Assembly: GCA_025201805.1 (NCBI GenBank)
Contig: MU619296.1
Location: forward strand, 108,865 to 172,864
Reading direction: 5' to 3'
Length of the DNA stretch: 64,000 bases
Source: Parasitella parasitica
Taxonomy: Eukaryota; Mucoromycota; Mucoromycetes; Mucorales; Mucoraceae
Part shown: piece after piece, positions 5,150 to 62,662 of the stretch
Numbering within the stretch: position 1 is the stretch's first letter
Layout of the letters: each line of letters starts with the position of its first letter
The notes under the pieces: generated by a model
What the model was told of the DNA's origin: nothing
What the model saw: the letters and a program-made list of their open reading frames with translations, nothing else
Databases searched by the model: none
Position numbers and translations under genes: made by a program

Positions 5150-8100
5150 ATGTCGCATACCTTTATCATACTGGATGGCCATCCAAGCGCTTTTAACCCG
5201 ACCTCCAGAGTAAGCAAGCAGCAGGTAGATCCAACACGTACGTAGCAAGCAGCGTATCGAACATCCACGTATATTCCTAACACATCACTCCATCACTCCA
5301 CCATTAGAGCAATTACCTCTTTTCCCACTATGGACAAGCATGGTGCAAAGCTCAATTGAATTTTGTCGCGTTGCTTGGGATATCCAGCCTGCTCAAAAGC
5401 ATATTGTAAGACGTTGCAACGTTGCCACCATACTGATAACTCACAAAAACCGAGCATTTTAGGTAAATGTAATGGTAGCCGGGGCAACTCCAATTTTAGT
5501 AAACGACGCCACAAAGCAAAGCTTACAGACCTTGGAGCAGCAATTCCCACATGCTCAACCTCGACAGACATACGCCCACGACAGACTGCAGCCGGCAATC
5601 GAACATGGCTTAAAGACATTTCTAGACGACGATAAGAACATGGGCACTTTGAAGCGATGCCGTATCATCTTGGTTGTAATCGCAAAGCATTCAGCCGAGA
5701 AAGCCTTCGAGTATGTGCATATGCAACAAAATATTTGCAGCACATTAAACATGATCAAATGTTAGGTTCCATAATAATCCGAATGATCCAGTGCGAGATC
5801 TCAGAGCCATAGTGTACCAAGCGGTGGCGAATGTAGATCCAAGCTTAGACCATGTTCAAGTGGATGTTTTAAGACTGCTTCCCAACGCTGAATCTGCAGA
5901 ATATGATACTTTACCTACCAGCGTTATCTCCAGACAGGTCTCACCGCAGATTAACATGTCGATATATAACATTCCAAATGGACAGGATGATTTAAAGCAT
6001 GCAATGCGTCACTTGGCACAATTGTATTACAACATCAACGTACTGCATATATCTAACATTCCTATGAAGGTAAAAATGATTCGAGGTTCTATAATAATGT
6101 TTATATTCTAATCTTCTGTGCGGTTTCAGTCGGCCGAGCAGGCACAATCGACGCACACAGTAACGCTGTTTTACCAGGCTAACGGATACCACTTGATTAA
6201 TCAGCAAGAACCTCTCAGAAACCTTCGTATCCACGATCCAGCCTACCTGAAATATAGAGAAATCAAGCTGGTGTACTCCAAACGTAGCAAAAAGGCACTA
6301 CCAGGCAAGTGATTCAAATATTTGTTGTTGCGCTTGTACATGTATGCTCACGAATAGTTGGTAAATAAAGAATCTGAATGGTGCACTTGTATGCACAATA
6401 CATCCCCACTCAAGGCAAGTATGCTGTACAATTTGCATATGTCCCATGTCTAACAAGCACTCTATAGTTTCATGATATGGCAACAGAAGTTTATTTAGAC
6501 ATGACATTGAGAGGTGTGTGCAGTAGTGTGTTCATGGGAAACTCAATTTATCCTCATTATTCCATTCAGGCAGTATCTCCTATCTAGTGACACCCGAGAA
6601 AAGCCATACGAAGATGTGGACGCACATTTTAATGGCTCAAGAGGGTGCGTACTCACACCAGCACGGTTTATCACACACAAAAATGCTCACTGCTTGAAAA
6701 TAGGTGCCATATTTCTACATTGTTTGAACAGCCAGCTCCAGGAGCAGTTTGTTGAAGCCGAAAATAGCGCAATTCAGTCAGCAAATGTCAAAGTCGAAGG
6801 CTTTGTGAATCATCTGGATGTCGCTGGAAATATACCCAAAACAGCCGAGCTCTTAGACACACTCATACGACCCAATTTATACGAAAATGTAAAAGAGTAC
6901 TTGGAGGCATCCGTTAAAAACCACTTGTGCAGCTCAGTTACATTGAATCCCTCCAGATATTCACATCACCTGCCAATTATGCACTCGAGCTTAAGTGAGC
7001 GAGGATTGTGTACATCACGTTCTATTGAAAAGGCAACTCGTTGGCGCACTTGCTTCCGTGATTGCGAGGGTACAGACCGATTTCCCATCCTGTACGAAAA
7101 CAAAAGGTCGATTCAAGATCTAGCCATTGATATCCTGAATGGCATCCCAAAAAGCTGTGGATTCGGCGTCGCCTTTGGACTCATACACGACCTTTTTGAG
7201 CAGCTGCAGGATGTGCTATTGAAAGATGTCATTTACACCAAAGAGATAAAATCCACTAAAGAATTGATCACTATGATTGTGACCGAATTGGTGAATGGCA
7301 TGGAAGGATCTGGCCAGAAGCTGTTCATAAAGGGGTTGAGAAAAGACGATGCAAAGCTCATCTCCAAAAAGCTGCTAGTGGCCCTTTGCCTTGTTGGCAA
7401 ACGATTTGCAAAGGACAGCGCTAATCATCAGCAGGTAAGGTCATTTCAGAATTTCTGCTGATCCACCCTTACCATTTTTTTTATGCATCTTAAAGCTGTG
7501 CAGCTTTATTCATGATGTTATCGAGCAAAAAACACAGGCTTTTTTTGAACAAGACAATTCGGTGATGTCGATAAAATCAGAGGAGGTAGCAACAACCACA
7601 ACCACTTTGGATGCCGCGTGGAATCAAGTCAATAGATATGAAAACATGTCCCTTAGAGAACGAGACGATGCTGCACATGGCTTCCTCCCGGAATTAAAGA
7701 CAGAGAAGCCTGCTACTGAGAATTCTACAAACTTTGTGGGACAACTGCCAACAAAACCCATCCCGCGACACAACCCTAACTATAAACCTCGAAGGGGCGG
7801 AAATAATAATGCAACCGCCAACACAGGCAATAGCAACAGCAATGTAGCACCTGCATCATACCACTATCCTAAGAAACCTACCTATCCCGATCCCTCTAAC
7901 GCCAAACCTTATTTAACATACATAGCTCCCACACTAGAAGAAAAGGCGCAAGAGGAAGAACAAGAAGAAAAGAGTCTGGGCAAGCCAGGGAATTTGCTTT
8001 GGCTGTACTGGATGAATGACAAAATCAAAAAGAGAGGCAACCAAGATGAGGGTGATCTGAGTCTAGGAACTGAGCTAGTGTACAAGCATCAACACTGGAA

Positions 8101-8164
8101 GCGAGTGAAGAAAGAGTTTTTGGGCCGTTTAGCACAACCCGGAGAGAAGGGCGAGACGACTTGA
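5150..8164 (+). CDS. INTS13: Integrator complex subunit 13 / Asunder homolog
   Basis: The start at 5150 gives MSHTFIILDGHPSAF, matching the VWA-like N-terminus of Asunder. Further matches to the animal protein, in order: PLFPLWTSMVQSSIEFCRVAWDI (near 5310-5405), VNVMVAGATPILVN (5464), a long domain ending HISNIPMK (6070), HFNGSRGCVLTP then GAIFLHCL (6630-6725), and a basic C-terminal tail with NLLWLYWMND and a final FLGRLAQ (7990-8140), resembling the conserved C-terminal motif of INTS13. Exons are approximately 5150-5209 (or -5221), 5308-5410, 5461-5709, 5766-6068, 6128-6306, 6570-7435 and 7495-8164. The donor after PGK (GTGATT) is weak but keeps phase. In animals INTS13 belongs to Integrator, which cleaves snRNA and promoter-proximal Pol II transcripts. 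It is nuclear. Yeasts lack it. The family call rests on motif order and C-terminal similarity recalled from the animal protein. Confidence 0.82.
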
Positions 8165-8838
8165 ACATTTTGTAAATAAACGATTCAGTCGACCGGCAAT
8201 CATGAGTTGACGATGGTGTAAAAAAGATAATATTGAGATCATGGATGTAACATATACTATTGTGATTTGTATTCAATGCAAGTAAGCATTTCCCTCTTGT
8301 AATTTATAGCGAAAATAGGAACAAGATGTTATTTTTGAATATTATATTGACCATGATAAAAATTTCTCGGAAATATGGGGCATTAAAAGAGCATGCTGCA
8401 GACATCCAAAACCTCATTCTCGACCACATTTACGACCACGAGTATTCCTTAGATTGCAGATTTATAGTAGCGAGTTAGCTATATACATAGAATTCAAAAT
8501 TGTATCCAACTCTATGATTATCAAATGAATAAAAAGCCACGGTATCAGCATATCGGCTCTTTATATTGGGGATACCGGTTGGCAATATGAGATTCTCTTC
8601 TTAATAGATATAGAAGTATCGCAACTGGAAGAACGCGTAATTAAGCTTCGCAAGAAATTTAGTCTTGCAAGCAGTTTGCAGCATGGAAATACCAGTCATT
8701 TAGGTATGCTTTTGAAATCGTGGTTGTATAGATTATCATCTCTTTCCTTGACTTGATTTTTTACAAACGCCCCTTGATCAAATCTAGCGTGACAGGAAAA
8801 TAACAAAGGACGGCTTCTTGCAGTTCAAAAAAAAAAAG
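8165..8838. other. intergenic between INTS13 and U1 snRNA
   Basis: This holds the 3' flank of INTS13, including an AATAAA-like signal just after the stop (gtaaataaacg), and the upstream region of the U1 snRNA gene. No ORF looks coding. The last bases before the TATA box are an A-rich run. Confidence 0.5.
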
Positions 8839-8846
8839 TATAAATA
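8839..8846 (+). promoter_or_regulatory. TATA box of U1 snRNA gene
   Basis: TATAAATA preceded by an 11-A run (8827-8837), about 32 bp from its end to the inferred U1 5' end at 8878. This spacing suits a Pol II start. No other promoter element is recognised. Confidence 0.7.
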
Positions 8847-8877: not shown

Positions 8878-9042
8878 ATACTTACCTGGGTCGTGTATCT
8901 GAGCTCACTAATCTTGGATATACAGCGAGAGTGGTTAACATTGCACAGCGTTGACTATTCATGCTGCGAACAGCCTTCGGGCTGTCTCGAGATCATAATT
9001 TTTGTTTGGGGGGAATAAGTGGTTCGCCGCGTGTTCCCCTGA
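8878..9042 (+). ncRNA. U1: U1 spliceosomal snRNA
   Basis: The RNA begins ATACTTACCTG, the conserved U1 5' end that base-pairs with 5' splice sites. It contains ATTGCACAGC closed by a GTTAAC/GTTGAC stem near 8936-8958 (the U1A-binding loop of stem-loop II). Next comes stem-loop III, ACAGCC-TTCG-GGCTGT (about 8969-8984), then an Sm site AATTTTTG at 8997-9004. Stem-loop IV follows as GGGGGAA...TTCG...GTTCCCCT (about 9008-9040). The order and total length (about 165 nt) match U1 of other eukaryotes. Stem-loop I can be drawn as GTGTATC/GGATATAC, but its loop differs from the usual U1-70K-binding GAUCANGAAG. The exact 3' end is inferred from stem IV. The only open frame over it is an accidental one. 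Confidence 0.93.
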
Positions 9043-9060
9043 ACACATTTCCCATTATAA

Positions 9061-9091
9061 ATTTTACACAAACGAAAAAACATTGTAAAAT
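9061..9091 (+). other. hairpin just downstream of U1
   Basis: ATTTTACA (9061-9068) and TGTAAAAT (9084-9091) form an 8-bp stem, about 18 nt after the inferred U1 3' end. It could mark 3'-end formation (RNase III-type processing or termination). No metazoan-like 3' box (GTTTN0-3AAARNNAGA) is obvious. The function is inferred. Confidence 0.3.
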
Positions 9092-10299
9092 CAATATTCT
9101 ACACCTAAAAATACATGATCTGTTTAAACTCTTTGCACATCTCTTGGTCGGTGATTTTCAGCTCCCCAAAACCAATCTCATGAAACACACAGTAGACCAT
9201 AGAAAGGGTTTTGTATCGTGTAAATGTAGCAAATAGTATGAGTATGGTTGGTGATTGCACAAACGCCAGCTAGGCCAGTAATGATAAGTTTAAATCCCGA
9301 CTTCTTATTTGTCTTGTTTTCTTTGGATTTGACCTCCCATTTGGCAAAATATCGCGATTATCACAACGATATTTGTATAGAGAAGCTGTAGCTTACGAAT
9401 TAAAGTTTATACTAGCGTTGTTTGCGCATCTAATGGTACCAGTTTCAGATTTTATTTTTTTTCACTCAAGACTTTTCAACAATCGCGAAAATCTAAATAT
9501 CAGGTTTTTGTCCGAAAGGCAAATTTTTGCATAAAAACACTGCCAAGCAGATGGCTTCACGTGAAAGAGCAAAGCTTCCTAGTTGATTTTCATTCAAAAG
9601 TGTTGTACTAAAAACTCTCGTTTTTTTAAGTTAAAATGCAGAAAAAGCAATTCCGAACGATTCGGCTCTATAGAAGTGTTAAGACTCTGACTTATTATGG
9701 TCTTTTGAAAAACGAAAAAAAATACTTACAGGGTGTAGTGCGTGATATGTGAACTGGTTTTAGCCATATCTGCGTTACAGAAATTGACAAATAGTCCCAA
9801 TAAAATCCTTCAGGGCGCTTGTTTTGGCTAGAGTTCAGTAATGGATCTTGCGCATGCTAATGCTAAACATACAAAGTCTATTTTGTATATGCTTTGCTAT
9901 AGCTTGTCTGTTCTAGACCTACAAAGGCAATAGTCTTGCTATATAATATATGGTTCAGCTTGAAGAAGGAGCGTATACCACTCATTCTGTTCCGTTCCTG
10001 AAAATTCATTTCTTGTGTTTTATACTCCAGTCAACTGCCATATATAATAGATGGCGGGATATGATGGATTCTGAATATTCAATGTTTTTTATATATAAAA
10101 ATGCAAAACCAGCCACATCTACAGCTACTACAACGTCTTCATGATGATACGAAATACATGTATTGATTTTTAATCATTATCTTTCATGTTACAAAATACG
10201 TCACATTACTTTGTTTTGAGCATAATATTCTAGCCTTTCCTGTTCTCCTTTCATTGTCCTTTTTCATCTCTCTCTCTTTCTCCCTCTCTATTTGCCTCT

Positions 10300-10663: not shown

Positions 10664-13600
10664 ATGAGCGGAAATATCAAAGTTGTAGTGCGATGCCGAC
10701 CCCTGAACGCTAGAGGTTAGCAGCTTGATTCAAACTATGTGTGGTATTATAACTAATGTTAAATAAACAGAGAAAGCAAGAGGTGCAACCACTCTTATAC
10801 GAATGACTGGAAATCAGACAATCATCACAAAACCTGCCAGCCCAAACGCCATTCACCAAAAGAAAAAGGGTCAAAAAGACGAAGAAGAGAGTGTCAAAGC
10901 ATTTACGTTTGATAGATCGTACTGGTCTGCAGATAAAGATGACGATCAGTATGCAGATCAGGAATTAGTGTATAATGACCTTGGAAGAGAGCTTTTAGAC
11001 CATGCATTTGATGGCTACAACTGCTGTATTTTTGCATGTAGAGTAATGCACCATGACTGAATTGGGGGGGATCTGACTAACCTTTTTATCAATATGTAGA
11101 TGGACAAACGGGATCTGGAAAATCGTACTCAATGGTATAGGTATATTTACATGCAGCGTTTCCGACTCTACTGATGCCTTTTGATGAATTAGATGGGCTA
11201 CGGCGAAGATAAAGGAATCATACCGCGAACATGTTCAGAATTGTTTGAAAGAATATCCGACCTGACCAGCAACGTCCTAAAGTTCCAGGTAGAAGTGTCA
11301 TATATCGAAATCTACAACGAAAAAGTACGCGATCTGCTGAATCCTGGCAACAAGGGCAACTTGAAGGTGAGAGAACACCCCACCATTGGACCTTATGTCG
11401 AAGATCTCTCCCGCCTTGTCGTCAATTCGTTTGAAGATATTGACCACTTGATGAGCGAAGGAAACAAGGTAGCTACAAACAGGAATTCGGGATACACAAA
11501 CAGCCAGCCAACTAATGATTAATTGATAGGCTAGAACAGTTGCTGCCACCAACATGAATGAAACATCGTCTCGTTCTCATGCAGTCTTCACACTCTTCCT
11601 TACATCTAACCGGTTTGAAGAAGTAGCCAATTTGAACACAGAAAAGGCATCCCGTATTAGCCTGGTTGATTTAGCCGGCAGCGAGAGAGCAAACAGCACT
11701 GGTGCCACTGGCGCCCGACTCAAGGAGGGTGCAAACATCAACAAATCTCTCACCACGCTCGGTAAAGTGATCGCGGCTTTGGCAGAGCAATCATCACAAC
11801 CCAGCAACAAAAAATCGCCATCAGCCCACATTCCTTATCGTGATTCTGTACTGACGTGGCTCCTCAAGGACTCTTTAGGTGGTAACTCAAAAACAGCCAT
11901 GATAGCAGCGATTTCACCTGCTGATTACGACGAAACAATGAGCACCTTGCGCTACGCAGACCAAGCTAAGCGAATCAAGAACAAGGCCATTGTCAACGAA
12001 GACCCTAATGCCCGAATGATACGAGAGCTGAAGGAAGAGCTGCAAGCGTTGCGCGATACTTTGATGATCTATGCGCCTGAAGAGGTAGAAAAAATTACGC
12101 TACAGAAAAAGTCTTCAGGAACGAGGAGCAGTCGAGCCTCATCTCGTGCGACAGCAAGAGCCACATCTGCTTCACCCATGTTGCTCATGTCGCCCGAAAG
12201 CCCGATCACAAAGCAGCGAGGAAACAGCCTATTAACCAAGGAGCAAGTGATAGATCAGCTGCAGTCGTCCGAGAAACTGCTGTCGCAAGTCAACCAGACA
12301 TGGGAGGAAAAGATGAGCAAAACCGAAGCCATCCACAGGGAACGCGAGAAAGCGCTGGAGGAGCTGGGCGTCATTGTTGAGAAGAACAATATGGGTGTCT
12401 ATGCGCCTAAATCGATTCATTTGATCAATCTCAACGAGGATCCGCTGATGACAGAATGTTTGATGTACCAGATCAAGCCTGGAATCACCCGTGTAGGCAG
12501 GTTGGGAAGTCAAGTGCCTGCTGACATCCGTCTCAGCGGCAGCGAGATACTGGATGAACACTGCTACTTTGAAAACATGTCGATGCCATTGGAAGAACAG
12601 CAAGACGAACAAGATATGGTCAACAACGTGGTTACTATCCACCCTATGAAAGAATCAGTTACTCTAGTCAACGGCATGCGCATCTCTCAGCCAAAGGTGC
12701 TACACAGCGGATACAGAATCATCTTTGGGTCTGGTCTCCATCACCTGTTTCGTTTCAACAACCCCGATGAGGTGCGACGAGAGCGCGAGCAGCTGCAGCA
12801 GTGTGGAATGTCGCCAAAAATCAGCACGAGCATTTTTCCTAGCATGATGGAGCGTGGAGACAGCGCTGCTCTGTCTCCAACAGGCACTTTGACACACATG
12901 ACGGATGTTACGGTCGGCGGCAGCATCGTAGACTGGAGCTTTGCCCACAGTGAGGCGCTTCGGAAGTTTGGTGGCACAAGAAACACGGATTTGACTATTA
13001 TGACAGACGAGGATCTCAAACAGTTGTCGGACGGTATTACTAAAGTGCGAGAATTTCGAAACAGGAAAAGGATATCATCGGATAGTCATAACCTGCTATT
13101 TGAGGACCCCGATTCTATCATGACAACCACCACTGTGTCACCGCGAACGTCGATTAGTTCCTCTAGCAACAAGCGATTTAGCGCAATCTCGTCTGTCCCT
13201 ACCGTCTTTTCCGACCAAGACCAAGATAACGATGACCCCCACTTGCAGGAACATGGCAAAGGCTTTTTGTCTGCCTCCATGTCCAAGGAGGAGAAGGACG
13301 AGCTTGTTCGCATCGCAACAGAGGAAATGCAGCAGCAGCTAGAGCTTCAGAAGCAAGAGTACGAAGAAAAGCTCAAGCTTGTCGAGTCGTCCAATATGAA
13401 GACAGACGAGCTCAACCGCGAGCGCGATGAACTTGCGGCCAAGTACGCTCAGATCAAGCAGGACATGGAAAAGGTGCTTGAGCAGCAGAAGCTGGCCTAT
13501 GAATCCAAAATCAAACGGATCTCGGCACATCTGCCTCCAGGCACTGCCCTCAGCTGCGACAATCTGCTCGTGGGTTACACTGCTAAAAACGCAGCTGAAA

Positions 13601-16600
13601 GCTTGATGCGGGCCACAATTGAAAAGTGGCGCCAGCTGCGATTTGTCAAGATGGCCGAAGACTGTCTTATTAGCGCTGTGGTTCTCAAAGAAGCCAACAT
13701 CATGGCCAAGGAGCTGGGCAAAAACGTCGTCTATCAGTTTATTGTAGTGCACGACGACATCTCGTCAAACCCGCTATCGTTTTGGGAGTCTACATCTGCA
13801 TTGCAGCCATTCACACGAGAACCTGACACACATTTGATTAATGAGGCTAAACCCTGTTTAGCAGTGCAAGTGATTGATCATGTCCACCGCGCTGCGTACA
13901 TCTGGTCTATCCCCAAGGTCAAACAACGCCTAAGACGCATGCGTCGACTATACGACTACTCGGACCGGCCGCTATTCACAGGCCAGCACTTTAACAGAGA
14001 AGACCCCTTTTACGAAACACCGTGTCCACGGTTTTCTCTGATAGGGCTGGCCCGCATTCCTTTGAGGAATTTGACGCTGCAACTGCATGCCGACAATTAT
14101 GTCGACGTATACTGCAGAAACACGGGCAAAGTCATGGGCCAGATCCGCGTGCTGATTACACCAATAGCCCGGTCTGTGTCGAGAAAACTTCAACATCATC
14201 AGCAGCAGCTCTACGAGGATACGCCGCAGAGACCAAACCTGTTTTATCGAAAGAAATCGTCGTCCAGCATCCTGTTGCAGCAAGATCAAAAGCATGTACT
14301 GGGCGAAAAGTACCTGCTTCACATTGGGCAGCAGCAGGTGTTCGAAATACGTATACAAGAGCTCAGAGGTGTTTCAGAAAACAACTTTACCCAAGTCCAC
14401 GCTCAGTTCAGGCTGTCTTCCTTTGGCAACGTGGAACGCTACGCTACTGCTGACAAGATATACCAGACAGATCCCATCAGCAACTTTGGAGCGGACCCGG
14501 TTGTCTTTAACCAGTGCCAAACCTTGTCTGTCAATATCACCGAAAACATGATGGACGTCATCTTGAATCAAGGGCTTACCGTCGAAGTCTACGGCCAGGC
14601 ACAGGAAGACTACCTCTATGGGTTAGTAGAACATGTAAGTAACAGTAGCGGCGCGAATAGTAGAAATGCGTCACCCACGACACCGACATCTGAACAATCT
14701 GAATTATTTGCAAAGGCGGTTGCATCTGAAGTAGGCAACAGTGGCAATGTACCAGCCAGCAGAAGAGTCTCCATCGATAGACGATTTACAGAAGAACAGA
14801 GCACATACGACGGCATACTTATGGAAGAGAGACATGATGTTTTGGCCTGGATCCAGATCTGCGAGCTGAATTCTGACGGAGAATATGCGCCTGTCAAAGT
14901 AATGCATACAGAAGTCAATGACTACCAGCATCACAACCACCATGTCAAACACCGCCAAGACGTATTCTGTCTTCGCCAGGGTTTACAGCGACGTCTTGCG
15001 TTGACTTTGTCGCACGATTCCGGAAAGAAGTTCGAATGGCTAAGCATCACGCAAGCAAAGATCGGCAACATACGGTTAATAGACAGCAAGGGCCGCCTGA
15101 CAGACTCCCCGCCACATCCTCCCGTTGAAATCCACTTGTTCCCTGATCAAAGCGAAATCACGTATGAACGAAACGGAACATCCAAGATGACAGCTCAGGG
15201 CCCATGGGACAGCTCCCTGCACGATTCGCTATTCTTGAACCGAGTAACAGCTGCAGGCCAAAGGGTTCGGTTGACATTGTCGTGGCAGATTGAATGCGAC
15301 AAGTGCGTGGCGCCACTGCAGTTTGAGATGGACATTTCGGTCCAAATTCAGGCTCGAGATGCGACCATCAGTGCGTCGGCCTCATCATCGTCTGTGTTTA
15401 GACAATTCCTGCTGGGTGGAGGAGACTCTGACTCGAATGGACGTGTCAGCAAAACTGTGTATAAATCAAGTGGGCTGTTCACGGTGCAGCTGAAGCCACC
15501 TATGACTCGACAGGTACGAGAATTATGGCGACTGAATACAGCAAACAAATATGTGCGTGGCGAAGAGTTCATCGGTTCCTGGAAGCCCCGTGGTGTCTCG
15601 CTTATCACTGACTATCGGGCTGCACGAAAACGCATGTTGCACCGGGAAAGCGTGGCTGCATTTAGACATTCTTTGGTTTTGGCAGGGCATCCACAAACCA
15701 AGGTTATCCAGCGCAGCCAGTCTGACCATGCGCTTACGCTCCAATGCCATGGTGCTACTCATATTTCTAAAATCAACGATACTGATATTACACTCGCCAA
15801 GAAAAAGACAGAGCCTGAAGCATTGCTCAAGAAGGCGCTTGAATTATGGAGAACTCAATTTGGAATACGAGAAGAAGTAGGTGTACATTTGAAATGCGTG
15901 CTGCACAAAAATATTAACGCCTATAATTAGATTGTGTTTAGCCAAGATCCACCAAGCATCACGTCCCTGACCGGCTCTTCAAGCACAAACAGCATCAGCA
16001 GTGTCAAATCTTTTAGCAAAAAGTACTCAAAGATCAAGCTAACATCTGACATCCAGCAATTGCATCCTAGGTATGCTTTCTACGTAAGGAATAACGTCCG
16101 TTTTCTAACCATTCATTTGCAGCGATACAGTCACCAAGAAGGGCTATTTGCTACACCCTGAAAACGTGGACGATGCATGGCTAAAGCACTGGTTTGTGCT
16201 TCGACGGTAAGATATTGTTCAAAATATGGGTTGGTATTAGAAGCGCTGACTGTGTGCAATGTAACACGCATAGTCCGTTTATTATTATTTATCAAGATCA
16301 AACTGAATTGGAGGAAATTGGCGTGTTTAATCTATCCTCTGCCCGGGTAGATTACAAGTCTGATTTGGAAGAAATGCTTCAGGTACGTTCTTGTTTAAAA
16401 CTACAATGAGGGTTGTTTCCTCTATATTGAATTCTAAATTGGATTTTAATACCAAATTATTGCCTGCATAAATAGAAAAAATACACGTTTGCGATTTACA
16501 CCAACAACAATGCCTATTTACTGCAAGCAAGTGATTTTGAAGACATGAAAGATTGGATTTCAAAGATCGATCAGTTTTATCCTGTAAAGAAACTCGAAAA

Positions 16601-41264: not shown

Positions 41265-41799
41265 TGTCATGAACCATGTTCAAGTATCCCAAGTATCTCA
41301 AGTATCTCCCAAGTATCTCAAGTATCTCCCAAATATTTCAAGTATCTCCCAACTATCTCAAGTATCTCCCAAATATTTCAAGTATCTCTCAAGTATCTCT
41401 CAAGTATCTCAGTAACTCACGTCACCAAGTAACTCACGTCTTCAAGCAACTCACGTCATCAAGTAACTCACGTCATCAAGTCTAGAACATCTGTAGTTTA
41501 GGTTCACCCGTAAACCTATTTACAGTATAGTCTGTCGGCACCTAACTCCGTGTCTCACCATGATAAGGATTAGTCATTGAGATTACTAATCCTTCCTCAC
41601 GTAATAATGAATAAGCAACGTTTCCCATGCTAATGTCGCGGACATGATGTCCGCACTCATGTCTCCAAAAAGTATAAATAGTCCACGTTCTTCGTCTCTT
41701 TCCTTTTCCCAGTGTGGATTATCTTGTATTCTAAATAATAAAGATAATCATCTCTTCTTACAAAACTATTTGATTATAACCGTCGCCAAGTTCCTGACA
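41265..41799 (+). mobile_element. solo LTR of an LTR retrotransposon (5-bp TSD GCTAT)
   Basis: The 535-bp unit begins TGTCA and ends TGACA, a 5-bp terminal inverted repeat of the TG...CA type. It is flanked on both sides by the identical 5-bp direct repeat GCTAT (41260-41264 and 41800-41804), the target-site duplication size typical of Ty3/gypsy and Ty1/copia elements. Inside are a TATA box TATAAATA (41673-41680) and AATAAA (41737-41742) in the order expected of an LTR promoter and R region. No internal polyprotein adjoins it, so it is a solo LTR left by recombination. Orientation is by the TATA/polyA order. Confidence 0.85.
41278..41480 (+). repeat. tandem repeats within the solo LTR
   Basis: The left half of the LTR is built from about 10-19-bp units of the form CAAGTATCTC(C) (about 41280-41410), then from units CAAGTAACTCACGTCAT (about 41408-41480). 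Tandem repeats in LTR U3 often hold transcription enhancers; that role here is inferred. Confidence 0.85.
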
Positions 41800-42199: not shown

Positions 42200-42961
42200 A
42201 CAAGAATTTCTAGCTTTTTGTGATCGAAATTTTGGGTTAGAAGATCCCACAAGGCATACTGTTACTGGATCCAAGGTTGCGTTTTACATCGAAAAAGAGG
42301 TATTAACAAAACTATAAGCATTTGTTCAATGTCTAATGGTTTTCTTTCACCACAGCTTTCTCAACGCAAGAAATTAAGACTTAAGCATGGCGAAGATCCC
42401 AATGCAACTCTCAGTGCAAATACAATTGAGATCCATCTTGCAGCAATTGTCGATCTTTGGAGAGATCAACGAAACAAAGGCATAAATAGTTTCCCTCATC
42501 CTCGAATTGAATGTGAACAATTTATGGATACTCTCGCAAGAAAAGAGAACAAGAAGAAGAGAGAAGAGTATCAAGACCGTGCAGCACTAACTGTTGGTGA
42601 TGGATACACGACGGTCGAGGAGTTGACGGCTTTGATTGATCACTACATCGCTCAAAATAGCGAAGAAGGCTTGCGTAATGCCTTAATTTGTTTACTCTCA
42701 CATTACATGTATCTTCGTGGAGCTTCTGCTCGTCAAGCTGAATTAGCGGATCTTCAGTCGCTAAATTTTGCTGCTGAAGGGCCTACACCTTGCCCTGCCT
42801 TGCTGTTTCTAATGACTGATAGCAAATCAAACAAGCATGGAGCCATTCAGATATCTGGATGTATGCGAAGCAAGTGCACTGAGATTTGTCCGCTCATGAT
42901 GCTCTCTGTGAAATACATTCACCATGATGATCTGCATTCCACTTCTAGATTCATCCAGTAA
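42200..42961 (+). pseudogene. Crypton/Ndc10-type tyrosine recombinase remnant
   Basis: The frame resumes after the gap as QEFLAFCDRNFGLEDPTRHT...TGSKVAFYIEKE, then an intron (about 42300-42354) and LSQRKKLRLKHG. Further segments are TIEIHLAAIVDLWRDQRNKG, ALICLLSHYMYLRGASARQAE and GPTPCPALLFLMTDSKSNKHG, then MRSKCTEICPLMMLSVKYI. This is the N-terminal SAM-like plus Ndc10 domain II pattern of fungal Crypton tyrosine-recombinase elements, related to yeast centromere protein Ndc10. The frame ends at 42961 before the catalytic C-terminus with the RHRY residues, and the last residues diverge. It is therefore truncated at both ends (gap and decay). Its upstream flank was hit by the solo LTR. Confidence 0.7.
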
Positions 42962-48399: not shown

Positions 48400-48623
48400 C
48401 GCCGATTATTTGGGTAGGAAGAGTGCAAGGATGCTGCAAGATGCTTTCCTTTCCATTGTTTTAGCTTGACATTGAACCGTTTTCAGAGTATTACCGGTCA
48501 CATGGAAAGCCTAGTTTTCAATCTTTTTCGCAACAGGAGCCATTGAAAACGACACAAAGCGCCAAAAGAGGGAAGCGTGTTTTTTTTCTCTTGCAAAATA
48601 TACGAGAAAAAATACCCAAATCC
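48400..48623. promoter_or_regulatory. bidirectional promoter region NMA111/HDAC
   Basis: 224 bp between two divergent ATGs. The open frame extends upstream of 48624 only through non-ATG codons, so the HDAC start is set at 48624. Confidence 0.5.
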
Positions 48624-50166
48624 ATGAAACGAGCGAGCGAAAAAGAAGTAACTTCTGTCCACAAAAAGCCCAAAAGCGATGCCATCCAACTTCGTTCTGT
48701 ACGAATTCTTCCAAACGCTACCCAGAATCAGCTTGTCAGCAAGAACAAGACCAATGGAGAGATAGAGACCATTGTCTTATCCTCTGACGAAGAAAACGAT
48801 GATCCAGCACCGTCACTCAAGGCCAAGGCAAGAGAACTGCTGCCCTCCTCCAGCACTTCTGATAGTCAAGATTTAAAAAGTTTGGAATTCACCATCACTA
48901 AACAAGCGACGTCTGCTCTTAAACAATCACCTGCCTCTGCTCGCCAAGTCCCTGTTGATAAATCGACCCAACCGCTTCCCATGAGACTTAACACCCAAAA
49001 GAAGCCAAAGGTTCGGATTCCCATAAAGAAAACGTCGATCTCAGCCAGCATAAACGAAAGTAGCGACGACGAGGGTGTGAGCAATGCGAATCAAGATATA
49101 GAGGCAATGTCGGCTGAGCCAAAACTAAATTCTAGTCTCGAAGCAATCGATGATGACGACCAGGAAAAAGAAGAGGTGGATGAATTGGACTCTGACTCGG
49201 ATTTGGATGAATCCACCTTGCAAAAAGTGTTTCCACTTGCACCACAAACAAATCACCAGCAAACCAAACTGCCGTACAGCCAAGCATTAAGCCATCTGCA
49301 AGAAATCTCAAAACCGCTCGACACAATTGCTCACCAGGAAGAACTCGTAAAATCAGCCGCTTTGATGAGAAAGCTTCCTGCGCGCGAAAGCCGAAATAAA
49401 GTCACCACTTACAACGACATTGCCAATTCGCTTGATCCGAGCCAATTTGCAGTTGATTATCTATCGTCAGCAGACGATGAGAGCGAAATAGATGCCTTCA
49501 GCTATGGCAACGCATTTAGCCACAACGACGACTCTTTATCTGCTGTCTTCACCAAATACAGCAAACAGGCCAATTTATCCCGCCCACGCAGATCACTAAA
49601 GACTGGGTTTGTCTACGATACTGCCATGTCATATCATGCCACTCCTGATGACACCGAAATTCATCCTGAAGACCCCCGGCGTATCTTTAAAATCTTCAAC
49701 ATAATAGAGCGTCGCGGTTTATTATCAGAGTGCAAGCGCATAAAGAGCAGAAGAGCAACTAAAGAGGAGATCTTGCTTGTACACAACATTAACCATTACA
49801 GAACGCTAAGAAACACCTCAGGTATGGTAACCCCCTACCAAATGCTGGTTTTCTTTTTATAACATGATTTCATACAACAGACTTGAAGAGCCGTGCTGAT
49901 TACATGAACATGGAAAAGGACTACGACTCAATCTATTTGAATTCCAACTCATTCGAAAGTGGCCTTTACGCTGTAGGGAGTCTGTGTAATTTGATTGAGG
50001 CAGTTGTGCGGGACGAAATCAAGAATGCGTTTGCTATTATCCGGCCTCCTGGCCATCATGCCGAATCAGACGTACCCATGGGCTTTTGTCTGTTTAACAA
50101 TGTTGCTATCGCTACCAGATACTGCATGAAACGGTTGAATGTCAAAAAGACGCTTATTGTTGATTG

Positions 50167-52720: not shown

Positions 52721-54674
52721 TTAAATTTTGGATTTATTTTGGCCAAATTTACTAAAAGCATCCATGTTCAACTCCTCATCCGTCCAAGGTATCAAGTCGA
52801 AATCAGAAGCCTCCTCAGAACTGTCGCCATCATTGCTATAATTGACACTGGCGCTCGGAATGACCGAGCTGCCGTCTTTGCCATGTTCGTGCTCTTTGGA
52901 TCGAAGGCAGGCAAACAGGCTGTCAGAAGCCGGCTTTTCTTGCGCAGTCTTGTCCTTGTCGTCTTCTACGACAACGAATGATTTCTGGCGTTCGCGACTA
53001 TTCCATTGAAGACAGGTCTGCACAGACGAAAACCAATCGTTGCTGGAATCGCAAGAGCAGAAGGTTTTGACAGGATAAGGAGACACTGTGATTTTGACAT
53101 GGTCGCCCTGCTTCAGCTCTGTCCTGTTTCTGCCATCAAAGCTACAATAAGCTGAATGCCTCGACCCGAAAGGAACAACGATGCGAATCACCATCTCGCT
53201 TGGTAGGAGCATGGGCCTAAAACTGAGTGTATGAGGACAGATTGGGGTTACAAGTGTACATTGCATATCAGGATGTGTAAGGGAACCACTTGCAGAAAGC
53301 TTGAAACAAAAAAAAAAAAGGTTAAGTAAAATTATATACTATGTGGAGGGAGAGGGGGGGGGGGAAATACTAGGGCATTTTACCGAGTAAGCAGTTGATC
53401 CAGTCGCTGTAGCAATGCACAATCCATCAGCTTGCACAGTGGTAAGATGACGCTCATCACCAAACAGCTCAAGCATAGAAATGTTGGAGCTTGGGCCTCG
53501 GTCCACGACGATTTCATTCAAAATGTGGAAATTCTGCGTGGGTACAGTTGAATAGCACATTACTTTCTCATCCATTAGATTTATAATGCTCTTGTCTCTT
53601 TTGGATTCCTGCTCAAACGCTTTCCTCATCCATGCTGTTTCCATCAGCTCCCACTTGCTCTGATCATCTGCCAACGATGCCCCATCAGGGTCGTCCATGG
53701 TCACAGATTGTGTCCATACTGTATCGCTCTGCGAGCCTCTCCTTGCACGCATTAAACAGTACGGGTCTTGTTTGTAGCGATACACTGTGCAGCTAAGACG
53801 CATGCGATTAGTATGCTTCAGACGCCCCTCAAATAGGTTTTTTAGCTCCTCCTTGTAGGTGGTAGACAAGAAGGGTGCAAGGAATCCCAACGAGCCCAAG
53901 TGGAATGGCATAATAGGAGGGACAGTGGTCTGGAACATGGTTGAAGTGAATAGGATAGTGCCGTCTCCACCAAGCTGCATGGGTTTTAGCGGCCGTTAGT
54001 GTTGTCATCTCTGCTTATCCGATGCATATTTTACCGTGATAATGAGACTGAATAGCTCAGGCTGCTTATGACAGAGTTTGGGCGTCCAGAATTTGAGATG
54101 TGTTCCATAGACGCAATCCTTTTCCACAAGCTTGCTGTACCCAAAGCGTTTGGAGTTCAGCAGATGTGCATCTACGTAGCTAAAAGACGCATATATTTTT
54201 AATAACCATACAAGCTGTAATGCACAAGCGCTGTTATTTACACTATAAAAGGATTCTTCTTTCCAAACCGAGGAGTAAATATCAGCCATTCTGCTAATTG
54301 ACGCGTAAAGGAGACCAGTGTGTTGTCCTTGGCTTTGGTCATGACCAAGATTCCATTGTTTTTGGGGTCCCAAGTGTCCATAGTCCGAGAAAAAGCTAGC
54401 AGTAATAATCAATGGGTATTTTCGGTAGAGATTCGAATAAAGTACCATACCTTGCTTTTTATTGGGAGGAGGAGGAGGACTTGACCCCGCGTTAGCTTCT
54501 CGCTTCGTACCACCTGGCTGCATTGATATTATAAAGCAGAATAATTATCGTCAAAAGGAAAATCAAAGAGATGCGAAAAAAAAAAATACCTGAATGTTGT
54601 TTCATATCGTCAGTATCAACGACTTGATGCTTATCTGTCTTCCAAATCACCTCGCTGAAAACAATGGTATACAT
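52721..54674 (-). CDS. NAD kinase (ATP-NAD kinase)
   Basis: Start taken at the ATG at 54674 (MYTIVFSEVIWKTDKHQ); a spliced upstream exon cannot be excluded because an acceptor-like TTTTCAG lies just inside. Catalytic motifs: LGGDGTILF (near 53970, GGDG loop), FHLGSLGFLAPF, HILNEIVVDRGPS and TATGSTAYS (near 53395), then TPICPHTLSFRP. A linker about 90 residues long (SVTMDDPDGASLADDQSKWE) is inserted in the middle, and a Ser/Asp-rich C-terminal tail follows the catalytic core (SSVIPSASVNYSNDGDSSEE). The enzyme makes NADP+ from NAD+ and supplies the NADPH pool. Family members usually are 400-550 aa, and this one fits. Confidence 0.92.
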
Positions 54675-60983: not shown

Positions 60984-61347
60984 AATAAAACAAAAGAGAT
61001 TTTCTTTGAATAATAGCAGCGAATCAATCGATCAGCTTGAGAGCTTGATGAATACTACATTGCTGGGACTTGCTACCACTGCACATTGTAGGTACACATG
61101 GAGATGTTTAGCCTGTAAAATAGCGCTTCAGTCCAATATGAACTTTAAACAGTGCGAAGCTTTTGTATCAGATTACCTAGTTGATTGGTAAAAGCATTTA
61201 TGCTGGTGATGACTATTACTTGGTAGTACCTAGTCCATCTCAAAAGAATCTAATTTCATTTAACAATCCGCAAAATGTTTTAAATGTTTTATTGTGCTAG
61301 GGTGGGTTCTCTTGAATGATGGATCTCATCTCTTTCGCTTGTTCATC

Positions 61348-62662
61348 ATGGTTACTGTTGGTATCGTCGGCGTCGGCCTTGTAGGCTCTGAATTAGTCTC
61401 TCAAATCTTGAAGTCATCCTACAAGGACGTATTTAAAGTTGTCGGTTTGGCCACTTCTCAAAAGATGGTTGTTTCTGATGCCCAGTATACGTCATTGTCT
61501 ATTGATCAAAAATCTGAACTTCGCTCTACTGTAATTGCCAGTAACGTTCAAACAGATCTCGCTCAATTCGCAGACTATCTTGCCAAGTCAAGCGAGCACT
61601 CTGTGATTGTGGATTGCACTGCTTCGGAAGACGTTGCTAACCTTTATCCCACATGGCTCCGTGCTGGCCTCAGTGTTGTGACACCCAACAAGAAGGCTTT
61701 CTCCAGTTCCCTTGATCTTTTCAAAGAAATTCAGGATCTTGCCGTTAACACCAGCCAGACAAAGAAGGGAAGGTCTCCGTTGATCTACCATGAAACTACT
61801 GTTGGCGCTGGATTGCCCGTGCTGTCTACGTTGACTGATTTTGTTAGAACTGGTGATGAGATTGAGAAGATTGAAGGTATCTTTTCAGGCACCTTGAGTT
61901 ATCTCTTCAACAATTTCTCCACTTTGACATCTACTGCCGCTACTCCTAAACCATTCTCGGAAACCGTTCGTGTGGCCAAGGATTTGGGCTACACTGAGCC
62001 TGATCCTAGAGATGATTTGAACGGCATGGATGTTGCTCGCAAGGTAAAGTTGTCATTGCAGACTTATAGAGCGGGGGGTGGAGGCGGAGGAAATGTGCAT
62101 CTCAACATTTGCAACTAGGTTACTATCTGTGGTAGATTGGCTGGTCTCGAACTGGATTTATCCACTCTTCCTGTCGAAAACATTGTGCCTAAAGAACTCC
62201 AATCGATCAAATCAACCGATGAATTCATGGCCAAATTACCTGAATATGATGGCCACTTTTCCAAATTAAATGCTGAGGCTTTAAAAGAGAATCAGGTTCT
62301 CCGTTACGTTGGTTTGGTTGATGTTCGAGGTGGACAAAGTGGTGTCAAGTTGGCCAAGTAAGCGCTTTTCATCCATGTGATTTTGTAAATGTTGATTTTT
62401 TTTTTTTTTTTTTTTCTCAGGTATCCTGCCACTCATCCTTTTGCCTCTCTCCAAGGCAGTGATAACATTATCAAATTTACCACTAAATATTTCCCCAACG
62501 GTGTTATTATTCAGGTATGTTCTGCCAAAGTAGGTGTATTGTAAATAAGAGTAATAATGGTAACAATGTATGTAATAGGGTGCTGGTGCCGGTGCTGCAG
62601 TTACAGCTTATGGTATTTTCACTGATCTTTTGAAGATTCAGGAACGTGTCGAAGGCTTTTAA
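61348..62662 (+). CDS. HOM6: homoserine dehydrogenase
   Basis: Exons 61348-62043, 62119-62357, 62421-62514 and 62579-62662, all in phase; about 370 aa. The start at 61348 gives MVTVGIVGVGLVGSELVSQ with the GxGxxG NAD(P)-binding loop. Catalytic-domain motifs: VVTPNKKAFSS, YHETTVGAGLPVL, GIFSGTLSYLFN, DLGYTEPDPRDDLNGMDVARK (substrate-binding and catalytic Lys region), TICGRLAG and a C-terminal GAGAGAAVTAYGIFTDLLKI. It reduces aspartate semialdehyde to homoserine for Thr, Met and Ile synthesis. There is no fused aspartate kinase, as usual in fungi. Its stop lies 14 bp from the stop of the convergent RHO3 gene. Confidence 0.96.

Follow-up and report, generated by a model that had tools for sequence, protein, structure and literature searches.

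An INTS13/Asunder homolog of the Integrator complex in the mucoralean fungus Parasitella parasitica

Introduction

The closest described counterpart of the gene reported here is human INTS13 (Asunder; PDB 6sn1, 8pk5 and 9eoc), which, in passages of PMC7347597 and PMC11062913, forms the nucleic-acid-binding end of the Integrator tail with INTS14 and is linked to the INTS4-INTS9-INTS11 nuclease. Residues 649-694 of the human protein, its cleavage-module-binding motif (CMBM), suffice to enrich INTS4-9-11 (passages of PMC7347597), and the motif consists of two helices, the first of which lies on the CTD1 surface of INTS9/INTS11 (passages of PMC11062913). In the metazoan cleavage module (7cun, 7pks, 7bfp), INTS11 carries HxHxDH and beta-CASP motifs and INTS9 lacks HxHxDH, as described for human in parts of PMC7980224; CPSF73 and CPSF100 (Ysh1 and Cft2) form the homologous nuclease pair of the mRNA cleavage complex. 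In reviews, Integrator is said to be missing from yeast or to occur in animals only. Here we analyze a 64,000-nucleotide stretch (the window; contig 60, positions 108865-172864, of the 30.7-Mb, 232-contig genome of Parasitella parasitica) in which a gene at 5150-8164 very probably specifies INTS13/Asunder as part of an Integrator complex that this member of the Mucorales has kept.

The INTS13 family and its automatically assigned names in fungi are known already; the complex we did not find described in fungi. A literature search, with subscription papers and supplements outside its reach, showed no fungal Integrator among the titles listed, and the passages available from PMC7471841, PMC7980224, PMC2942849, PMC2647740 and PMC10406608 hold no description of one.

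Results

Gene structure

The gene lies on the + strand, starts at 5150, stops at 8164 and comprises 10 exons, which specify a product of 825 residues, compared with 706 in human INTS13. Splice sites were picked by reading frame and likeness to INTS13, and the product of the hand-built model is the hypothetical protein BD408DRAFT_418575 of P. parasitica (P0001; 825 residues, 100% identity, 100% coverage); the deposited protein thus agrees with the model, both GC-AG introns included. These introns (6305-6370 and 6415-6467) have AG/GCAAGT donors and flank a 44-base exon, and AAG ends the introns 6305-6370 and 7435-7495. An earlier note on this DNA, made by a model from the letters alone, had proposed an intron-containing INTS13 gene with the same strand, start and stop, all of which the exon model bears out. 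Its splice 6306/6570 has to be given up, as it skips two exons of the actual path (6304 to 6371-6414, 6468-6513, 6570-6644 and on to 6704). The FNGSRGCVLTP motif that it read there is out of frame (frame of 6571); the correct reading is GSISYLVTPEKSHTKMWTHILMAQEG followed by AIFLHC, a junction region that aligns with human INTS13. The exons and the C-terminal segment are as follows.

5150..5237, +, exon 1: start ATG; the VWA domain begins (model; product identical to P0001)
5308..5405, +, exon 2: PLW..SSIEFCR, matching human LWT..SSMEYCR
5463..5710, +, exon 3: VWA
5766..6069, +, exon 4: end of VWA, ISNIPMK
6130..6304, +, exon 5: followed by a GC-AG intron (AG/GCAAGT donor, AAG acceptor)
6371..6414, +, exon 6: SEWCTCMHNTSPLK; followed by the second GC-AG intron; absent from the earlier note's model
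6468..6513, +, exon 7: FHDMATEVYLDMTLR; absent from the earlier note's model
6570..6644, +, exon 8: GSISYLVTPEKSHTKMWTHILMAQEG
6704..7434, +, exon 9: AIFLHC..., alpha-helical domain
7496..8164, +, exon 10: linker, conserved C-terminus, stop
7976..8161, +, conserved C-terminal segment (residues 764-825): after a variable linker, at the position of the CMBM, whose function it may share

Homology to INTS13

The gene is a genuine INTS13. Its product matches PF10221 (INTS13/Asunder) far above chance level, at E 7.2e-19 and with a score of 68.4 bits where the cut-off is 25, this being the sole Pfam family matched at 0.001, and a sequence search of solved chains returns INTS13 as the only match. Residues 36-370 align with human INTS13 by sequence and also in hhalign, the match running to human residue 392; they cover the beta-barrel region after the VWA domain, where the structure model itself is poor at 298-337. 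The predicted fold contains an N-terminal VWA domain of the INTS13 type and finds INTS13 chains first (E 1.2e-20), followed by the second chain of INTS13-INTS14 entries, by inference INTS14 (5e-7), and by 8rbx_f (7e-5), which we take to be an INTS6 chain. Helices are predicted with confidence at 538-624; in the VIA range the fold match reaches residue 617 of the model and 564 of the chain, these being end points only, with a root-mean-square deviation of about 8 and no sequence match. The human and fungal proteins thus share the VWA domain and the region from NIPMK to IFLHC. Both features by which the earlier note had recognized an INTS13 homolog and which lie in this region, the VWA-like start and NIPMK, are confirmed: the former by the predicted fold, and the latter, in frame at residues 242-246, by its pairing with NIPMK of human INTS13. 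The LxPF interlock loop of human INTS13 (passages of PMC7347597) was not seen by eye in the fungal protein, which has an invariant proline, residue 416, within IRPNL.

A protein search with the product returned 23 proteins, P0001 included, from Mucor, Parasitella, Cokeromyces, Pilaira, Blakeslea, Pilobolus, Benjaminiella, Rhizopus, Mycotypha, Sporodiniella, Fennellomyces, Apophysomyces and Circinella; one, P0005 of Mucor ambiguus, is already annotated "Protein asunder". All bear names that we take to be those of Mucorales (the order was checked for P. parasitica). Fifteen of the 23, the P. parasitica protein among them, were aligned, and eight fragments or near-duplicates (P0003, P0004, P0010, P0012, P0013, P0015, P0016 and P0022) were omitted. 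PF10221 is matched by 14 of the 15 at E 0.01, and one of the 15 also weakly matches CRAL_TRIO_2 (0.0093). N242 to M245 are invariant, and K246 varies (N in two proteins, the stretch lacking in one). The mean majority fraction is 0.60 in the VWA domain, 0.62 in the barrel and 0.48 in each of 371-460 and 461-640; it stands at 0.71 in the C-terminal residues 764-825 versus 0.39 in the linker 661-738. This conserved end, for which two helices are predicted (predicted local distance difference test score, pLDDT, about 75), resembles the human CMBM in its two helices and in its place after a variable linker. A profile of the 15 proteins recovered the same 23, none further and no animal INTS13; because such a search needs shared 5-residue words, its matches do not bound the distribution of INTS13. 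In P0021 (Apophysomyces sp.), the C-terminal segment has diverged and runs into other sequence, probably through a gene-model fusion.

Other Integrator subunits in the genome

In the P. parasitica genome, a beta-CASP family search hit three loci (L001, L002 and L003) with four matches in all. L001 encodes INTS11, with 719.7 bits (2.1e-215) to INTS11 versus 313.1 bits to CPSF73, and its metallo-beta-lactamase and beta-CASP motifs, HxHxDH included, are intact and identical in the alignment. L002 and L003 are CPSF73 and CPSF100, genes separate from those for INTS11 and INTS9. Four further subunits were located with query sequences and checked against solved sequences, the named subunit being each time the only match at E 0.001.

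C9:281657-282880, INTS9 (L005): 8.6e-58 to solved INTS9, matching INTS9 only
C40:37452-38952, INTS4 (L007): 5.6e-45, one exon
C8:194495-195781, INTS3: 1.4e-53 over 213 residues
C93:91437-92182, INTS7: 4.3e-23, three joined pieces

All three subunits of the metazoan cleavage module are thus encoded in this genome. The INTS9 frame lacks HxHxDH and has ANSESML roughly (by eye) where INTS11 has HFHLDH, which suggests that the animal pairing of an active with an inactive nuclease is conserved. INTS3 is also part of the SOSS complex and is therefore weaker evidence for Integrator. Passages of PMC11062913 mention SOSS factors together with INTS3.

INTS11 occurs in many early-branching fungi. Of the 7987 candidates scored in a protein search, 6285 were better than 1e-30, and the 120 best of these were examined; 98 name an organism (counted by eye) and 22 do not. 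We take all 98 to be fungi outside Dikarya and to represent Mucorales, Umbelopsis, Mortierellaceae, Endogonales, Glomeromycotina and Calcarisporiella; Dimargaritales (Kickxellomycota) also occur among the best 120. Many of the 120 are already annotated "Integrator complex subunit 11". As only the best 120 of 6285 are concerned, they have no bearing on Dikarya.

U1 and other snRNA genes

A U1 snRNA gene lies 713 bp past the INTS13 stop, preceded by a putative promoter element.

8833..8844, +, AAAAAGTATAAA: putative promoter element, 45 bp upstream of U1
8878..9040, +, U1 snRNA gene (RF00003, 84.3 bits, E 2.1e-19)

Two U5 genes and one U4 gene were found elsewhere in the genome, the U4 gene being the single one of five matches to exceed the family's cut-off (the four weak ones were dropped). 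AAAAAGTATAAA begins 45-48 bp upstream of the predicted 5' end in all four snRNA genes, U1, U4 (L018) and the two U5 (L011 and L012), and is likely a promoter element common to them. Another copy at 41667-41678 (+), with no Rfam match downstream, possibly marks an unrecognised small RNA gene or occurs by chance. U2 was not found in the genome with RF00004 or with a 24-base pattern allowing up to 3 mismatches; perhaps it is missing from the assembly or interrupted.

Discussion

We assign the P. parasitica gene to an Integrator complex on the basis of INTS13 homology over the VWA domain and beta-barrel, of a predicted fold that resembles INTS13, and of individual genes encoding the cleavage module (INTS4, INTS9, INTS11), the core subunit INTS7 and INTS3. 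The Integrator machinery has apparently persisted in fungi that branched off early. We posit that INTS13, taking the tail role expected by homology, would pair with a divergent INTS14 into a nucleic-acid-binding "sting", which its conserved C-terminal helices would tether to INTS4-INTS9-INTS11; INTS11 would then cut Pol II transcripts during their synthesis (snRNA precursors, for example that of the neighboring U1, or promoter-proximal RNAs), and the cut would end transcription. On balance we favor, with some reserve, the view that a working fungal Integrator dates back to an ancestor shared by animals and fungi, is still present throughout zygomycete and arbuscular mycorrhizal fungi with its nuclease and INTS13 tail, recognizes its targets without the metazoan 3' box and was lost towards Dikarya.

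Several results weigh against the assignment and the proposed mechanism. INTS14, with which INTS13 is interlocked in the human structure, was not matched in the genome by PF19435 (E 10) or a human query, nor were INTS1, 2, 6, 8 and 10 by human queries, several of them partial, or INTS1 by PF12432, so that most core and tail partners of the metazoan complex went undetected. The earlier note had named subunits that such a genome should contain: INTS4, INTS9 and INTS11 are there, as are INTS7 and INTS3, and INTS10 and INTS14 gave no match. Genome searches of these kinds, however, missed two genes that are present, INTS13 itself (by PF10221 at E 0.001, a limit of searching exon by exon, and by a human query at E 10) and INTS9 (by the beta-CASP family search), and non-detection therefore cannot show absence. 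Outside the VWA and helical domains the INTS13 structure model is weak (mean pLDDT 62.7, with 308 of 825 residues below 50). The C-terminus, in which the earlier note had likened an LLWLYWMND...FLGRL segment to the human module, does contain that segment in frame, but the likeness lacks statistical support: 390 of 2000 shuffles score as well in the pairwise comparison, as do 67 of 500 and 40 of 498 when profiles are compared, all of which is within chance, P0021 having been left out of the profile test because its end has diverged. The fungal end is thus not recognizably homologous to the human motif by score, and since hhalign does not extend into the C-termini either (residues 36-370 only), its function is suggested by position and conservation.

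Nor do the snRNA genes supply a processing signal. The metazoan 3' box, GTTTN0-3AAARNNAGA, does not occur in the 60-base 3' flanks of U1, U4, U5a and U5b, whose best matches have 3, 3, 3 and 4 mismatches and are equaled in 256, 309, 345 and 500 of 500 shuffles, respectively. No motif shared by the four flanks exceeds dinucleotide shuffles, the score being reached by 19, 17 and 13 of 60 shuffle sets at widths 8, 10 and 12. The U1 flank at 9036-9120 shows no excess of folding over shuffles (z -0.31; 65 of 200 as good). For positions 8990-9080 (+), which include the U1 end with its own terminal stem-loop, just 2 of 200 shuffles fold as well (z -2.45); in this fold the 3' flank pairs with the region of the Sm site, a signal that might come from nothing more than the known stem-loop of U1. 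A link between INTS13 and snRNA processing is accordingly plausible but unproven; U1 is a possible Integrator substrate, and its closeness to INTS13 may be chance.

How far do other explanations account for these data? That a different VWA protein (INTS6, INTS14, Ku, TFIIH p44 or an Rpn10-like protein) was misread as INTS13 is highly improbable and we reject it: solved chains and Pfam each point to INTS13 alone, the fold ranking places INTS13 ahead of the presumed INTS14 and INTS6 chains, and the outcome that the earlier note had named as fatal to its call, a missing INTS13 profile match or the absence of every other subunit combined with a closer match to some other VWA family, did not occur. 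Contamination or a foreign insert, in whose favor nothing was found, has a negligible chance and is likewise rejected, as the gene sits on a 64-kb stretch among other eukaryotic genes and encodes a named P. parasitica protein, and the other 22 proteins of the search bear what we take to be Mucorales names.

An unlikely, though more serious, alternative is a reduced Integrator of INTS4-9-11, INTS7, INTS3 and INTS13, with no INTS6 or INTS10/14 and with INTS13 as a solitary adaptor. It would fit the six subunits without a match, and nematodes are reported to lack INTS14 (passages of PMC7347597), but searches that overlooked INTS13 itself would be expected to miss divergent subunits, and the physical interlinking of the human INTS13 and INTS14 chains (passages of PMC7347597) makes a solitary INTS13 less likely. 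It is also conceivable, if doubtful, that the complex ends promoter-proximal or non-coding transcripts, with fungal snRNA 3' ends made otherwise, for example by RNase III. The snRNA flanks without a 3' box or shared motif suit this proposal, as does the greater effect of the human INTS10/13/14 module on post-pausing termination than on snRNA maturation (passages of PMC7347597); the comparison, however, covers four snRNA genes with predicted 3' ends, and the U1 flank shows no obvious hairpin for an RNase III route.

The picture of Integrator as missing from yeast or restricted to animals is corrected by the presence of six or more subunits in a mucoralean fungus, together with INTS11 in many early-branching fungi. 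Laboratory strains of Mucor, for example, offer fungal systems in which simply removing a gene could show what Integrator does in snRNA maturation and in early termination.

Neighboring genes

The remainder of the window encodes further recognizable proteins.

11530-15927, +, kinesin-3-like protein
42224-42958, +, frame with an NDC10_II domain (7.1e-13), perhaps of mobile-element origin and not a centromere protein
48465-49859, +, possible histone deacetylase (24.9 bits, below the cut-off of 27.9)
53342-53995, -, NAD kinase
61264-62115, +, homoserine dehydrogenase
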